Assembly (NCBI RefSeq): GCF_001050155.1
Contig: NZ_LFVY01000020.1
Coordinates: forward strand, 1 to 64,000
Length of the DNA: 64,000 nucleotides
Direction: 5' to 3'
Source: Nitratireductor soli
GTDB taxonomy: Bacteria > Pseudomonadota > Alphaproteobacteria > Rhizobiales > Rhizobiaceae
Made by a program: the position numbers and the translations under genes. Of the stretch, positions 12,182-18,541 are shown one piece after another (the stretch's first letter is position 1; the number at the start of each line of letters is the position of its first letter). The notes beneath the pieces were generated by a model. The model worked only from the letters and a program-made list of their open reading frames with translations. It was not told the DNA's origin and did no database searches.

Positions 12182-12799
12182 TCAATCCCTGCCGTTGGTC
12201 CCGCTATCCGGTTCGGCCAGGCCCGCGATCAATCCGGCCAGGGCGCGGCGGCAGGCATCCGCATCGGCACCGGCCTCGATGGACAACGCGGCCCGGTCGA
12301 AAGCAGCCGCCAGAAGGCTGGTCAGCGGGTCGAGCGGCAGGCGGCGTACCGTGCCGGCGCGCATGGCGGCAGCCAGGCCTTCGCGGAGGGTTCTGTTGCC
12401 GTGGCGGTTGTCGATCTCGTCCATCAGCGCGCGTCCCAGGACCGCGGGTCCATCGAGGAGCAGGAGCCGGGTGCGGCCGGGCTCGGCCATTGCCGCCAGA
12501 TAGGCGTTGCCGCCGTCGATGAGCGCGTCGATGGGCGAGGCGGCGGTGCCCGATCCCTGCTCGACCTGTGCCGCCACCTTCTCCGCCTCGCGTTCGGCCA
12601 CCGCCTGGAGCAGAGCCTGCTTGTCGGCGAAATGATGATACAGCGCGCCGCGCGTCAGGCCGGCCATCCTGACGATCTCAGGCGTCCCGGTTTCGGCATA
12701 GGATTTCTCGACGAAAAGACGCCGTGCCGCCTCGATCAGTTTCTCGCGGGTTTCCTCTGTCCGTTCACGGTTGGAACGGCGGGCAGATTCCTGTTGCAT
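12182..12799 (-). CDS. TetR/AcrR family transcriptional regulator
   Basis: 205 residues when started at the ATG whose codon touches the operator (12797-12799). The N-terminal HTH is clear (REKLIEAARRLFVEKSYAET, VRMAGLTRGALYHHFADKQAL), followed by an all-helical ligand domain. The strong palindromes directly upstream suggest autoregulation and control of the divergent VOC gene at 12928. The ligand is unknown. The DUF599 gene converges on it from the other side. Confidence 0.9.
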   Translation of the reverse strand: MQQESARRSNRERTEETREKLIEAARRLFVEKSYAETGTPEIVRMAGLTRGALYHHFADKQALLQAVAEREAEKVAAQVEQGSGTAASPIDALIDGGNAYLAAMAEPGRTRLLLLDGPAVLGRALMDEIDNRHGNRTLREGLAAAMRAGTVRRLPLDPLTSLLAAAFDRAALSIEAGADADACRRALAGLIAGLAEPDSGTNGRD

Positions 12800-12845
12800 A
12801 CATGCAGCCTGTATGTTAGTTGAATTTACGTACAGGCTGCATGTA
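12799..12845. promoter_or_regulatory. Candidate TetR operator: perfect 15-bp inverted repeat
   Basis: TACATGCAGCCTGTA at 12799-12813 is exactly inverted at 12831-12845 (TACAGGCTGCATGTA), with centres 32 bp apart. Each arm is itself an imperfect palindrome of AcrR-like form (ACATGCAG-CCTGTATG). Two repressor dimers could therefore bind, one per arm. The site abuts the tetR start codon and lies about 80 bases upstream of the divergent VOC gene. Confidence 0.8.
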
Positions 12846-12927
12846 TAAATCAGTTCTGCAGAAAAGGAAAACCCGTTCGTCACGCCGGCTCTGATCGGAG
12901 CCTCTCAGCACCAGGGAAAGGTAAATC

Positions 12928-13353
12928 ATGAAAAGCACGAGCTATTATCCAGTCATCATGACCGACAAGGTCGCGGAAACCGCGGCGTTCTACTGCACGC
13001 ATTTTCGTTTTCAGCCGCTGTTCGAGGCCGATTGGTATGTGCATTTGCAGTCGAGCGAGAACCCGGGTGTCAACCTGGCGGTGATGGATGGAACGCATGA
13101 AACCATTCCTGCGGCAGGGCGTGGGCGCGTTTCGGGCCTGATCCTGAACTTCGAGGTGGACGACCCGGATGGAGAGTATGAGCGCGCTGTCGCGGCCGGC
13201 CTGCCGATCCTGCAGGAATTGCGCGACGAGGCGTTCGGCCAGCGGCATTTCATCACCGCCGACCCCAGTGGCGTGCTGATCGACATCATCAAGCCGATTC
13301 CGCCATCGGCGGAGTTCGCCGCCCAGTACGCGCCGGAAGCAACGCCCGAGTAA
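12928..13353 (+). CDS. VOC (glyoxalase/bleomycin-resistance fold) protein
   Basis: 141 residues with the beta-alpha-beta-beta-beta pattern of one VOC module. The first half carries [21 protein letters not shown] and the second [22 protein letters not shown] followed by [17 protein letters not shown]. Likely a metal-dependent lyase, dioxygenase or binding protein; the substrate is unknown. The ATG has AGGGAAAGG upstream. It is divergent from the TetR regulator across a large operator and is the probable regulated gene. Confidence 0.8.
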
Positions 13354-14154: not shown

Positions 14155-14568
14155 TCATTTTCCGACGATCGCCCATTTCACGCCAAAGGGGTCGCGCACC
14201 TCGCCATAGCGGTCGCCCCAGAACATCTTCTCCAGCGGCATGACGACCTCGACACCCGAGCCGACCGCACGCGCCCACCAGCCATCGACGTCGTCGACCG
14301 CCAGCGTCAGGGTGAAGCCCTGGTGCTTTTGCAGCGGCTGGCCGTATTCGGGATAGGGATCGCACAGCATGACCGAGCCGCCATGAATATGCAGGTGGAT
14401 GTGCATGGTGCGGCCCTGATCGTCACTCGGCTGGCGGTAGACCTCGCGCGCGGCGAAAGCCTGTTCATAGAACGCGGCCGCCTTGGAGGCGCCGCCGACC
14501 ATCAGATAGGGGACGACCCCGCCCAGCACCGGCGGCATTTCCTGAACGGCGGTTTCGACATCTGACAT
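14155..14568 (-). CDS. VOC family protein, PhnB-like
   Basis: 137 residues. GGVVPYLMVGGASKAAAFYEQAF opens the fold and GGSVMLCDPYPEYG plus DPFGVKWAIVGK close it, as in PhnB/YdcJ-type glyoxalase-fold proteins. These are often found with YciI/DGPF proteins in ECF sigma-factor loci. The upstream region holds AAGGAGAAGAACA before the ATG and the same TGTCGG-N17-CGTC element as the two nearby YciI genes. It is therefore a likely target of the ECF42 sigma factor encoded at 16855-18108. No substrate is known. Confidence 0.8.
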   Translation of the reverse strand: MSDVETAVQEMPPVLGGVVPYLMVGGASKAAAFYEQAFAAREVYRQPSDDQGRTMHIHLHIHGGSVMLCDPYPEYGQPLQKHQGFTLTLAVDDVDGWWARAVGSGVEVVMPLEKMFWGDRYGEVRDPFGVKWAIVGK

Positions 14569-14615
14569 TGTTCTTCTCCTTTTTGCCCAGCCCGTTTGTC
14601 GGGCCTTGTCATGAG

Positions 14616-14642
14616 GACGAACGAGCCCCCCGCGATCCGACA
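14616..14642 (-). promoter_or_regulatory. Candidate ECF42 promoter of the PhnB-like gene
   Basis: On the minus strand TGTCGG (14637-14642) is followed after exactly 17 bases by CGTC (14616-14619), 48 bases from the start codon. The same hexamer, spacer length and tetramer occur before both YciI genes of this locus, and agree with the TGTCGA/CGTC-type motif I recall for ECF42 sigma factors. Confidence 0.65.
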
Positions 14643-14697
14643 GCTGTGCTGTTTTTGTGTGGGCATGTGCCTGCCCCTGCCGGCCGCCGGCGACATT

Positions 14698-16248
14698 TCA
14701 ACCGGCGGCGGCGTGGACATCGCCATCCGGGCTGGGCGTGCCGACCTCGCGCAGCATCAGCGTGACCAGCAGCGCTGTGGCCAGAGCAATGACGGCGCAG
14801 ACCGACGCTGCTACGACCAGGCCATCGGAAAACGCCCCCTGCGCGCCTTCGATCAACGCCGCGCCAGCCACCAGCGGCAGATCTGCGGCCACGGTCAGCG
14901 CGCCGCCCAGCGTGTCGCGGGCGGTGGCCGCAACATCGGCGGGAATCCCGCGCGCTGCCTGTTCCATGCCTGTCCGATAGGCGGCGGTCACCACGCTGCC
15001 GAGCACGGCAATGCCCAGCGCGCCGCCGAGTTCGGTACAGGTTTCGGCGATGGCCGAGGCCGCGCCGGCGCGCTCCGCCGAAACCGTGCCGACCACGAGA
15101 TCGGTGGTGAGGGTGAAGACCGGCGCCAGCCCGAGAGAGAACACGGTGAAAGCGGCGATCATGACCACCAGGTCCGCATTGGCGGCGGCCCAGGCAACGC
15201 AGACGAAACCGGCAGCGGCGAGGATCAGGCCAAGCGCCATCACAAGCGGTGGGCGAATGCTGGCGGTCAGCATCGACGTCAGCATGGAGCCGACGATGAA
15301 GGCAAGGCTGGACGGCAGCGACCACAGGCCCGCCTGGAGCGGTGTCAGGCCGAGCACGAGCTGGAGAAACTGCGCGATGAACAGGAACGAGCCGAAGGCG
15401 ATGAAGAAGGCGAACAGGTTGACCAGCAGCGAAGCGCTGAAGGCGGGGCGGCGGAACAGGCTGAGATCGATCAAAGGATCGGCGAGCTTTTTCTGGCGAA
15501 GGACGAAAACGAGGCCCAGCACGGCACCCAGGGCGATGGCGCCGCCGGCCAGCGGCGAGAGGCCATGTTCGGCGCTGTGCTTGATGCCGTAGATGACGGA
15601 GAGGATCGCCACCAGGGACAGGAGGGCGCTGACGATGTCGAGCCTGCCGGCATCCGGATCACGGAATTCCGGCAGCAGGAAGGGGCCGACCAGAAGCAGG
15701 AGGATCATGACCGGCACGGCGATGAGGAACACCGAACCCCACCAGAAATAGCCGAGCAGAAAGCCGCCGACCAGCGGGCCGATGGCGGCACCGGCGGAGA
15801 AGCTGGAGATCCACACACCGATCGCAAATGTGCGTTCGCGCGGATCGTGAAACATGTTGCGCAGGAGGGACAATGTCGAGGGGGCGAGCGTCGCGGCTGC
15901 CAAACCGAGCAGGGCACGGGCGGCGATCAGCATCGCCGGCGTCGTGGAAAAGGCCGCCAGGATGGAGGCGAGACCGAAGGCGACGGCACCGATCATCAGC
16001 AGCTTGCGCCGGCCTATCCGATCTCCCAGCGTGCCCATGGTGATGAGTGAGCCGGCGATGAGGAAACCGTAGATGTCGACGATCCACAAAAGCTGGGCGC
16101 CGGTCGGCTTGAGCGCGGCGCTCAGATGCGGAATGGCGAGATTGAGAACCGTCATGTCCATGGAGTAGAGCAGACACGGCAGGGCGAGCACTGCGAGGCC
16201 GATCCATTCGCGTCGGCCGGCGCGGGCTGTTTCAACGGGGGCGTTCAT
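14698..16248 (-). CDS. MFS transporter, DHA2 14-TM type (SmvA-like)
   Basis: 516 residues starting at MNAPVETARAG. About 14 membrane segments are seen. LYSMDMTVLNLAIPHLSAAL in TM1 and MGTLGDRIGRRKLL (motif A) are the pattern of SmvA/LfrA-type exporters of quaternary ammonium compounds and dyes. GLAAATLAPSTLSLLRNMF follows in TM4. Expected inner-membrane proton-driven efflux. It sits between two genes with ECF42-type promoter elements but has no such element of its own just upstream. It ends 129 bases before the VOC gene start. Confidence 0.85.
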   Translation of the reverse strand: MNAPVETARAGRREWIGLAVLALPCLLYSMDMTVLNLAIPHLSAALKPTGAQLLWIVDIYGFLIAGSLITMGTLGDRIGRRKLLMIGAVAFGLASILAAFSTTPAMLIAARALLGLAAATLAPSTLSLLRNMFHDPRERTFAIGVWISSFSAGAAIGPLVGGFLLGYFWWGSVFLIAVPVMILLLLVGPFLLPEFRDPDAGRLDIVSALLSLVAILSVIYGIKHSAEHGLSPLAGGAIALGAVLGLVFVLRQKKLADPLIDLSLFRRPAFSASLLVNLFAFFIAFGSFLFIAQFLQLVLGLTPLQAGLWSLPSSLAFIVGSMLTSMLTASIRPPLVMALGLILAAAGFVCVAWAAANADLVVMIAAFTVFSLGLAPVFTLTTDLVVGTVSAERAGAASAIAETCTELGGALGIAVLGSVVTAAYRTGMEQAARGIPADVAATARDTLGGALTVAADLPLVAGAALIEGAQGAFSDGLVVAASVCAVIALATALLVTLMLREVGTPSPDGDVHAAAG

Positions 16249-16386
16249 GACGATCCTCTGTCTGTGCCACGGTGCGCGATCCTGCGCCGTGACGGTCAAG
16301 ATAACGGGGTAAAGCGGCGCACGGTCGCGCGAGGCCAAATGCACAATCGCACAGTCCTCCTGACAGCATTCTGTCAGGACGCGGAA

Positions 16387-16761
16387 TCAGGAGGCGATTG
16401 CGTTTGGCGCCTCGGAGATGCCGGTGACGGCGCGCAACTCCACCGTGCCGTAGGCGGCACAGGGGATTTTTCCGGCGACATCGATGGCGTCCTGCAAATC
16501 CTTCGCCTCGATCAGGATGAAGCCCATCAGCTGTTCCTTCGTTTCGGCGTGCGGGCCGTCCAGGGCGACCACCTTGCCGCCGCGGCTGCGCAGATGCAGC
16601 GCTTCGGAAGGCGAGCGCAGGGCATGGGCGACGACCATGTGGCCGGACGCCGCCAGCACCTCGTCATAGGCGAGCGATTCCCGGATGAGCTGCGACATCT
16701 CCTGTTCAGGCAGGGCGTCCAGCGTGGCTTCGTTGAGATGGATCAGACAGACAAAACGCAT
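16387..16761 (-). CDS. YciI/DGPF-domain protein 1
   Basis: 124 residues of ferredoxin-like fold. MRFVCLIHLNE opens the domain and the DGPF box appears as LDGPHAETKEQLMGFILIEA. DGPF proteins are the genomic hallmark partners of ECF42 sigma factors; their biochemical role is unresolved. AGGAGAAAGCA precedes the ATG. An ECF42-type element (16810-16836) lies 49 bases upstream, between this gene and the sigma-factor stop, so the gene can be transcribed separately from the sigma gene. Confidence 0.85.
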   Translation of the reverse strand: MRFVCLIHLNEATLDALPEQEMSQLIRESLAYDEVLAASGHMVVAHALRSPSEALHLRSRGGKVVALDGPHAETKEQLMGFILIEAKDLQDAIDVAGKIPCAAYGTVELRAVTGISEAPNAIAS

Positions 16762-16809
16762 TGCTTTCTCCTATGTTCATGCGGCGCGGGGGTGCGCCGA
16801 TACCCGGAG

Positions 16810-16836
16810 GACGCGCTGCAGATCAAGCGGCCGACA
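16810..16836 (-). promoter_or_regulatory. Candidate ECF42 promoter of YciI gene 1
   Basis: TGTCGG (16831-16836) and CGTC (16810-16813) on the minus strand with a 17-base spacer, just after an A-rich stretch (AAAGAAAAAA). Hexamer, spacer length and tetramer match the sites before YciI gene 2 and the PhnB-like gene. Confidence 0.65.
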
Positions 16837-16854
16837 TTTTTTCTTTGATGAATT

Positions 16855-18108
16855 TCAGGAGACGCGGGTTTTTTCCGAAAGCTTGTCGAGATGCATGCGG
16901 ATGTGGGCTGCTTCGGCCGGCGTGCGGGCAAGGGAGATGGCGCGGTCGAAGGCTTCGCGGGCATCCTCGCTGCGGCCGGCCTCGCTCAGGAAAGCGCCGC
17001 GCACGCCGTGAAAATAGAAATAGCCCGACAGACGTTCGGCCAGCGGGGCGAGCAGGTCGAGCGCGGCTTCGACGCCGCGCGTCTTGGCAACCGCCACCGA
17101 ACGGTTGAGCGTGATGACAGGAGAAGGCTGCAGACGCTCGAGCGTCTGGTAGAGAAGGTCGATCTCCTGCCAGTCCGTGTCCTCAGGACGCGCGGCGCGG
17201 GCGTGCAGGGCGGCAATGGCCGCCTGGACCTGGTAGGGGCCGGGACGGCGGTGGCGCAACGCCTTGTCGACCAGCGCGAGCCCTTCGTCGATCAGCGGGC
17301 GCTTCCACAGGCTGCGGTCCTGGTCTTCGAGGAGCACGGCATTGCCATCGGCATCCATGCGCGCTGCGGTGCGCGCATGCTGCAGGATCATCAGCGCGAG
17401 AAGGCCCATGATTTCCGGCTCGGCGGGAAACAGCCTGAGCAGGAGCCGCATCAGGCGGATCGCCTCGTCGCACAGCGAGGCGCGCACGACGCTGTCGCCG
17501 CTGGAGGCCGAATAGCCCTCGTTGAAGACCAGATAGAGCATGGCGGCGACCGCGCCGAGGCGCTCGGCGCGTTCGGCCGCATCGGGAGCGGCGAACGGCA
17601 CATTGGCCTCGGCGACGCGGCGCTTGGCGCGGGTGATGCGCTGCTCCATGGCCTTTTCGCCGACCAGGAAGGCGCTGGCGATCTCCGGCACGGTGAGGCC
17701 GGAGACGATGCGCAGCGCCAGCGCCACCTGCTGGGTGGCCGGCAGGTCCGGATGGCAGCAGACGAACATCAGGCGCAGGATATCGTCGCGGTAGTGGGCG
17801 TCGTCGAGCCGTTCGGCCATGTCCGTCTCGACATCGTCCAGATCGGAGATCTTGTCTTCGGGCGGCAATGCGGTGTTGCGGCTGTCGCGCCGCACATGGT
17901 CGAGGGCGGCGTTGCGGCCAACGAAGATCAGCCAGGCGGCGGGGTCGCGCGGCGGCCCCTTCACCGGCCAATGCTTCATGGCGCGCAGGCAGGCTTCCTG
18001 AAAGGCTTCCTGAGCCCGGTCGAGATCGCGGAAATAGCGCAGCAGCGCGCCCATCGCCTGCGGGCGGGCGCCGGTCAATGCCGCTTCGATCCAGGCCGGG
18101 TCCGTCAT
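16855..18108 (-). CDS. ECF42-type RNA polymerase sigma factor with long C-terminal domain
   Basis: 417 residues from an ATG overlapping the upstream YciI stop. Region sigma-2 is at about residues 15-80 (FRDLDRAQEAFQEACLRAMK, AWLIFVGRNAALDHVRR). Sigma-4 is at about 125-180 (LALRIVSGLTVPEIASAFLV, MEQRITRAKRR). The remaining 230 residues form a helical TPR-like domain beginning at MLYLVFNEGYSASSGD, a segment conserved in ECF42 (SigJ-like, DUF6596) proteins. No anti-sigma gene is adjacent; in this group the C-terminal domain is thought to control activity. It is coupled to YciI gene 2 and probably autoregulates through that promoter. Confidence 0.88.
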   Translation of the reverse strand: MTDPAWIEAALTGARPQAMGALLRYFRDLDRAQEAFQEACLRAMKHWPVKGPPRDPAAWLIFVGRNAALDHVRRDSRNTALPPEDKISDLDDVETDMAERLDDAHYRDDILRLMFVCCHPDLPATQQVALALRIVSGLTVPEIASAFLVGEKAMEQRITRAKRRVAEANVPFAAPDAAERAERLGAVAAMLYLVFNEGYSASSGDSVVRASLCDEAIRLMRLLLRLFPAEPEIMGLLALMILQHARTAARMDADGNAVLLEDQDRSLWKRPLIDEGLALVDKALRHRRPGPYQVQAAIAALHARAARPEDTDWQEIDLLYQTLERLQPSPVITLNRSVAVAKTRGVEAALDLLAPLAERLSGYFYFHGVRGAFLSEAGRSEDAREAFDRAISLARTPAEAAHIRMHLDKLSEKTRVS

Positions 18109-18491
18109 GATGCCAGCGTTTCCTTTCCAGACAGGACGCCCTTCTCGAAAATGCGTATCGGGCGGATTTCGAAGGTGACGCTTTCGCCTTCCTTCAGCCG
18201 CTTGGCGAATTCGATGACCTCGTCGAGACTGTCGCAATCGACCATATAGAAGCCGAGCAATTGTTCCTTGGTCTCGGCGAACGGGCCGTCGAGGACGATC
18301 TGCTCGTTGCCGGAGACGCGAATGGTCGTGGCGGCGGAGGTTGGAACCAGGCGCACCGCCGGCCCCATGCGTCCCTGGTCGATCATGCCCTGCTGGACGC
18401 GGCGGCGCTTTGCCAGAACCGCGTCGTCCTCGGCCTTCGACCAGGAGGTGACGACGTCTTCATCGTGGTAGCACAGAAGAGCGTAGAGCAT
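18105..18491 (-). CDS. YciI/DGPF-domain protein 2
   Basis: 128 residues when started at [11 protein letters not shown], which has AAAGGAACCGG upstream; longer frames upstream lack family similarity. The DGPF box reads [20 protein letters not shown]. It overlaps the sigma-factor start by four bases (ATGA), forming a two-gene operon. The ECF42-type element at 18515-18541 would give a leader of about 15-20 bases. Confidence 0.87.
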
Positions 18492-18514
18492 TCCGGTTCC
18501 TTTCATGAATGGAA

Positions 18515-18541
18515 GACGCGCGACCATGCCGCAATCCGACA
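18515..18541 (-). promoter_or_regulatory. Candidate ECF42 promoter of the YciI-sigma operon
   Basis: Minus strand TGTCGG (18536-18541), 17 bases, CGTC (18515-18518). The tetramer is 24 bases from the ATG at 18491. It is one of three sites in the locus with the same hexamer, tetramer and spacer length, and implies positive autoregulation. Confidence 0.68.

Follow-up and report, generated by a model that had tools for sequence, protein, structure and literature searches.

Three copies of the element TGTCGG-N17-CGTC, all on the minus strand of a 64,000-nucleotide stretch of Nitratireductor soli DNA (GCF_001050155.1, NZ_LFVY01000020.1, positions 1-64,000; the window), very probably serve as promoters for the ECF42 sigma factor whose gene lies between them, as their spacing, flanking bases and conservation suggest. 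They precede two YCII-family (DGPF) genes, the second of which leads into the sigma gene, and a gene of the VOC (glyoxalase/PhnB-like) family. ECF42 sigma factors are widespread (PF20239 is found in 140 of the 297 genomes sampled from the order) and their role is poorly known. All three matches noticed in the original prediction are exact. The regulon that it called local is instead predicted to be scattered over the whole genome, at about 12-15 units.

The sigma factor and its probable promoter element

Assignment of the sigma factor to ECF42, also part of the original prediction, is borne out by its domains and by the way the motif follows the sigma gene across genomes. Sigma regions 2 and 4 are the only ones present (Sigma70_r2, E 4.7e-12; Sigma70_r4_2, E 5.8e-9), and they are followed by a C-terminal extension of about 200 residues of the TPR (tetratricopeptide repeat) type, which matches DUF6596 (E 1.4e-37) and, below the cut-off, TPR_2. 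YCII/DGPF genes are adjacent, and the promoter motif upstream of YCII gene 2 is the one printed for the group member RpoE10 of Sinorhizobium meliloti (PMC6180224). An AlphaFold2 model (mean pLDDT 83.4) has a helix at residues 151-167, the expected place of the recognition helix, and is almost wholly helical from residue 177 on. The top Foldseek matches of this model are mostly TPR proteins, none at an E value of 0.001 or better, and weak profile matches to TPR chains lie at about residues 365-400. No anti-sigma family was matched among the neighbours scanned on one side (both YCII proteins, the MFS exporter, two VOC proteins, TetR and FKBP), a scan that a novel type could escape.

RpoE10 (SMc01150) is itself a TPR-type ECF42 sigma factor, whose gene follows a YCII gene. 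Six genes rose when it was overproduced, including SMc01149-SMc01148 and SMb20475-SMb20474, and among the domains of its targets are some of the glyoxalase-like type and a predicted hydrophobic-ligand domain. TGTCGG-N17-CGTC is the promoter sequence given for SMb20475, SMc01149 and SMc01151; a T stands two bases after CGTC in the first two, and the printed sequence of the third stops at CGTC (PMC6180224). The window shares with this system a TPR-bearing ECF42 sigma factor after a YCII gene, the same motif and glyoxalase-like or ligand-binding targets, as well as remote members, of which S. meliloti has one operon. It differs in having about 12-15 predicted units against the six raised genes, and a second YCII gene and an exporter beside the sigma gene. 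Given the RpoE10 precedent, the sigma type, the motif and the VOC targets are already known. The VOC gene is thus not the addition to the usual DGPF targets that had been proposed, because the glyoxalase-like SMc01148 and SMb20475 already rise with RpoE10 (PMC6180224). Extensions of about 200 residues with TPRs and nearby YCII genes also link the window to Pseudomonas putida ECF-10 and to Streptomyces venezuelae Sven_0747, Sven_4377 and Sven_7131, which are given as examples in PMC8999054.

The spacing of the element is sharply defined. In the window, the relaxed pattern TGTCGG-N16-18-CGTC has six matches against 0.92 expected from shuffles, none of 100 shuffles reaching six; the three matches beyond the N17 sites have spacers of 16 or 18. 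Genome-wide (5.1 Mb) the relaxed pattern is common (193 matches; reversed control, 49), and the exact N17 pattern has 30 matches (reversed control, 11). Thirteen of the 30 N17 sites are promoter-placed, meaning that no other gene lies across the site and that a same-strand start follows within 100 bases (judged by reading script output), compared with a single one of the 23 N16/N18 sites examined, or two when L017 is counted, whose in-frame start was judged internal; these 23 are the N16/N18 sites among the first 30 of the 193 matches, out of 163 in total. In two of the 13 (L035 and L040), the sole frame across the site looks like the gene itself extended upstream. The relaxed spacing of 16-18 was rejected, since 22 of the 23 control sites (21 with L017 allowed) are not promoter-placed. 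Around 86 genes for sigma factors that have, like that of the window, a glutamate at position 155, the N17 form occurs 116 times and any other spacing from 10 to 24 between 0 and 5 times. Moreover, 82 loci (696 kb), whose sigma factor either belongs to the window subtype or has not been assigned to another, contain 134 sites; 127 of these have an open reading frame (ORF) of at least 80 codons starting no more than 100 bases away, a loose test that had no control.

The full element is longer than first described, TGTCGG-N17-CGTC-Y-T. Among 133 distinct sites with full flanks, T is found two positions after CGTC in 130 and the intervening base is C or T in 122; YT is present at all three window sites. 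Of the 30 N17 sites in the genome of N. soli, the 14 that continue with YT are without exception intergenic as read from the locus listings, against 3 of the 16 that lack it (Fisher 4.8e-6). The spacers are not as unrelated as had been thought: those of the VOC and YCII-2 sites are identical at 10 of 17 positions, and an AT continuation is found at 8 of the 13 promoter-placed N17 sites and at 1 of the remaining 17.

A predicted regulon that follows the sigma factor

Besides the three window genes, the promoter-placed sites precede genes for DUF1801, DUF1428, RibD_C, DUF4287, VOC and AHSA1 proteins, a DrrA-type ABC ATPase, a third, remote YCII protein and two alpha/beta hydrolases; the DUF4287 site is without YT. 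A further YT site (L029) is situated 113 bases upstream of an ABC ATPase gene. In relatives, the gene after the sigma gene varies (YCII, VOC, AHSA1, SnoaL-like or DoxX-like) and the promoter is constant. Sixty-four target proteins (62 from relatives and 2 from the window) were scanned, after a filter on start sequence had removed most YCII genes of sigma operons and left some atypical ones in place (e.g., L242 and L265); VOC accounts for 27 of them, AHSA1 for 15 and YCII for 10. Separately, an intergenic YT-type site (L046, G000:C33:207080-207106) lies upstream of a 60-codon ORF with a hydrophobic N-terminus, possibly a small secreted protein or an RNA of the regulon.

The sites are conserved where the sigma factor is present. 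Most genus relatives, and many of the 9-kb sigma loci examined, have the site of the YCII-2/sigma operon at the equivalent position; that of YCII-1 recurs in the relatives G007, G009 and G005, and that of the VOC gene upstream of the VOC gene in genus relatives. For remote targets, a single search across 60 genomes was made per homologue family, and no more than 30 loci were scored in each. The site lies within 160 bases of DUF1428 in 8 of 9 loci with a close sigma ortholog and in none of 21 without. Upstream of AHSA1 genes it is found in 10 of 15 loci with the sigma factor and 0 of 15 without, distances being measured from the aligned start, which is not always the start codon. The corresponding values are 5 of 15 against 0 of 15 for RibD_C (350 bases searched, p 0.04) and 7 of 11 against 0 of 2 for DrrA (220 bases searched), the latter difference not being significant (p 0.19). 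Genome-wide, the density of the motif is 4.88/Mb in the 16 genomes with a close ortholog and 2.51/Mb in the 44 others (Mann-Whitney p 7e-7), with no significant difference for the reversed control (2.88 vs 2.21/Mb, p 0.12).

Several observations weigh against the reading of these elements as promoters of the ECF42 sigma factor. Sixteen of the 30 genomic N17 sites lack YT, and 13 of those lie within coding sequence; the objection that the motif might be common at random positions half holds for TGTCGG-N17-CGTC, 13 of its 30 sites being coding, and fails for the form with YT. G013 and G028 were scored as lacking the sigma factor yet carry more distant Glu155 sigma factors; moving G028 changes the DUF1428 count to 8 of 10 with the sigma factor and 0 of 20 without. 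The exact site is absent at AHSA1 in 5 of the 15 sigma-bearing loci (3 of these 5 having CGTT), at DrrA in 4 of 11 and at RibD_C in 10 of 15. Finally, the YCII-rpoE10 operon was not raised by RpoE10 overproduction despite its motif, which, as the authors note (PMC6180224), overlaps the mapped start; autoregulation of the window sigma factor is for that reason unproven. Chance alone, a 10-base pattern in a GC-rich genome that was noticed as three copies fell upstream of genes, is highly improbable: the relaxed pattern is indeed common and coding matches are frequent, but the peak at N17 (116 vs at most 5 at other spacings), the conservation at promoters of homologous genes only where the sigma factor exists and the intergenic position of every YT site speak against it, the first two being grounds for rejection.

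Promoter specificity among ECF42 sigma factors

The identity of the sixth base of the -35 element follows residue 155 of the sigma factor. A set of 178 sigma loci was compiled from best-first lists of limited length, in which at least two places were fetched twice and many members are close kin; 112 have a scorable promoter before the YCII or the sigma gene, the unscorable ones comprising 14 with Glu155 and 52 others. Position 6 is G in 71 of the 73 loci with Glu155; of the two exceptions, L075 and L341, one has an A and the other a C in the promoter of the sigma factor itself. In all 39 loci without Glu155 the base is A or T. The spacing scan agrees: TGTCGG-N17-CGTC is found 116 times near the 86 Glu155 sigma genes and not once near 91 others, around which TGTCGA-N17-CGTC (30), TGTCGA-N17-CGAC (19) and TGTCGT-N17-CGAC (5) occur. 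In G017, G040 and G050, where the only sigma factors found are of the non-Glu155 kind, TGTCGA-N17-CGTC precedes DUF1428 (three loci), AHSA1 (one) and RibD_C (one). Two residues alone, Val140 and Glu155, never vary within the G class and are uncommon in the A/T class.

Alignment places residue 155 at the Arg of the segment GTVRSRIFRAR in the AlgU-type chain 6in7_B, and this segment agrees at each position with the SigE residues that PMC6713349 names. According to that paper, R171 of SigE contacts the base opposite C-31 and R176 contacts G-35. Arg160, which matches SigE R176, is present in 177 of the 178 sigma factors, the remaining one having a gap. If the second base of TGTCGG is G-35, position 6 is -31; we infer this register, as we do the transfer from the AlgU-type chain to SigE. 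The G at position 6 may be read by Glu155 of the recognition helix.

The rival to such a contact, to which we give somewhat less than an even chance, is shared ancestry: an old clade whose promoters have G, with no contact between residue and base. Mutual information puts residue 155 in only 18th place of 405, many other residues also separating the groups, and the G/CGTC label requires only three changes on the sigma tree, so that few independent events support the link; L075 and L341 are moreover exceptions within the Glu155 class. Against ancestry alone speak the restriction of the class-specific pattern to Val140 and Glu155, and the inferred alignment of residue 155 with SigE R171, the residue that contacts the base opposite C-31 in PMC6713349.

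The genome of N. soli encodes two more sigma factors with DUF6596, 44 and 34 percent identical to that of the window. Their YCII genes are preceded by TGTCGA-N17-CGAC, which has 15 sites genome-wide, only the two before these YCII genes being promoter-placed. Because the paralog element was found in promoter position at their own YCII genes only, the three related sigma factors appear to be insulated by promoter sequence. That all three instead share the TGTCGG sites, in which case the set would not be the regulon of the window sigma factor alone, is improbable. The three do coexist in one genome with the same 17-base spacing and -35 elements one base apart, and the RibD_C gene beside the C12 sigma gene has the hybrid TGTCGA-N17-CGTC; however, the paralogs' own YCII promoters read TGTCGA-N17-CGAC, and the absence of TGTCGG-N17-CGTC near the 91 non-Glu155 sigma genes speaks against sharing.

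The -35 element of the S. venezuelae ECF42 sigma factors and of P. putida ECF-10 is TGTCGA. One Pseudomonas (L307) and one Streptomyces (L296) locus examined here likewise have TGTCGA and lack Glu155, in contrast to the TGTCGG of the window subtype. Covariation of the third base of the -10 element with sigma residues is weak (best mutual information, 0.46 bits). We regard it as an even call whether ECF42 sigma factors are, more generally, near-orthogonal switches in which largely one residue sets the promoter (Glu155 for G; Ala, Gly, Ser or Gln for A or T), the third base of the -10 element (T or A) is a second letter, and several sigma factors act in parallel in a genome, one with a dispersed detoxification regulon and the others with their own YCII operon only.

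Two further observations concern promoter types. TGTCGT-N17-CGAC followed by TG constitutes a third type, found at L213, L220, L314, L317 and L326, whose sigma factors form one clade (support 100). At L286, about 188 bases before the sigma start, a single element matches TGTCGA-N17-CGAC on both strands and is flanked by the sigma gene on one strand and a YCII-like ORF on the other; it is possibly a divergent ECF42 promoter.

The exporter, the locus and a proposed mechanism

The features of the locus are listed in the table. In the order of transcription they are a site, YCII-2 (whose stop overlaps the start of the sigma gene), the sigma gene, a site, YCII-1, an inverted repeat, the MFS exporter gene, a site and the VOC gene. 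By coordinates, the sites lie 23, 48 and 47 bases from the ATG of YCII-2 (18491), YCII-1 (16761) and VOC (14568), respectively.

Table. Features of the ECF42 locus in the window
Feature	Positions	Strand	Basis
Promoter site TGTCGG-N17-CGTC, then TT, of the YCII-2/sigma operon	18515-18541	-	Exact sequence match
YCII-family (DGPF) gene 2, 128 aa	18105-18491	-	Pfam PF03795, E 5.7e-19
ECF42-type sigma factor, 417 aa: Sigma70_r2, Sigma70_r4_2, DUF6596, weak TPR_2	16855-18108	-	Pfam
Codons for residues 151-167, predicted recognition helix, sigma region 4	17608-17658	-	AlphaFold2; coordinates by arithmetic
Glu155 codon	17644-17646	-	Arithmetic from residue number
Promoter site TGTCGG-N17-CGTC, then CT, of YCII gene 1	16810-16836	-	Exact sequence match
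YCII-family (DGPF) gene 1, 124 aa	16387-16761	-	Pfam PF03795, E 7.1e-20
Inverted repeat TCCTGACAG-N4-CTGTCAGGA, between YCII-1 and the exporter	16358-16379		Not an ECF42 site
MFS drug exporter of the DHA2 kind, 516 aa	14698-16248	-	Pfam MFS_1, E 2.6e-47
Promoter site TGTCGG-N17-CGTC, then CT, of the VOC gene	14616-14642	-	Exact sequence match
VOC (glyoxalase/PhnB-like) gene, 137 aa	14155-14568	-	Pfam PF00903, E 1.1e-17

The suggestion that the exporter serves the same response is not supported: a sigma site adjoining it was not found in the gap of the window and of four related loci, and the dyad CCTGACA-N6-TGTCAGG, followed by TGTG-rich sequence, is present there between YCII-1 and the exporter and points to other control. 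This dyad, the conserved form of the inverted repeat at 16358-16379, is exact in the window and in G007, and imperfect but recognisable in G009, G005 and Chelativorans salis (L232); allowing up to two mismatches, the window contains it once. Dyads of this kind are common in repressor operators and RNA hairpins, and this one is possibly the operator of a repressor. A TetR gene (TetR_C_41, 12182-12883), divergent from a second VOC gene (12928-13353), is not its obvious owner, since a different inverted repeat, imperfect and of 31 bases, lies near its start (12791-12853). This repeat falls within the annotated start of the TetR ORF; translation probably begins deeper within that ORF.

Read-through from the YCII-1 promoter could also bring the exporter into the response. 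The exporter gene lies on the same strand, 138 bases after YCII-1, and the order YCII-1, MFS, VOC is kept in G007 and G005, as is YCII-1 with MFS in G009, where the contig ends inside the exporter gene. With the conserved dyad in a gap that lacks an ECF42 site, read-through has perhaps one chance in three, and separate control of the exporter seems likelier. In C. salis (L232), an ECF42 site precedes a DUF899 gene that is followed by the exporter gene. By NCBIfam, the exporter best matches qepA, LfrA and SmvA; it resembles the QepA/LfrA/SmvA/QacA-type DHA2 exporters in its best model scores and is unlike them in that all 25 matches listed fall below the curated cut-offs.

In the mechanism that we propose, a stress, probably chemical, would be sensed, and the sigma factor, held or released by its own C-terminal TPR extension and not by an anti-sigma factor, would direct RNA polymerase to TGTCGG-N17-CGTC-Y-T sites. 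It would then transcribe its own YCII-sigma operon and the dispersed units. These would encode small, often ligand-binding proteins (YCII, VOC, AHSA1, DUF1428, DUF1801 and RibD_C), alpha/beta hydrolases and a DrrA-type ABC exporter, products that, acting jointly, might bind, modify or expel a toxic small molecule. The role of YCII, the stress signal and the task of the regulon are here conjectural.

What appears to be new is how broad the conserved regulon is, together with the YT extension and the covariation of base 6 of the -35 element with Glu155; the literature searched yielded no paper that connects DUF1428 or DUF1801 with an ECF (extracytoplasmic function) sigma factor. The regulon seems broader and better conserved than the original prediction supposed, and its specificity rule should be testable. 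The sharp motif provides a readable, conserved list of targets from mostly uncharacterised families (DUF1428, DUF1801, YCII, AHSA1, VOC and RibD_C), which, by sharing that list, are suggested to work together. The possible one-residue, one-base specificity code, which like the reach of the regulon looks new, lends itself to testing what sets promoter specificity and would help in the design of orthogonal switches.

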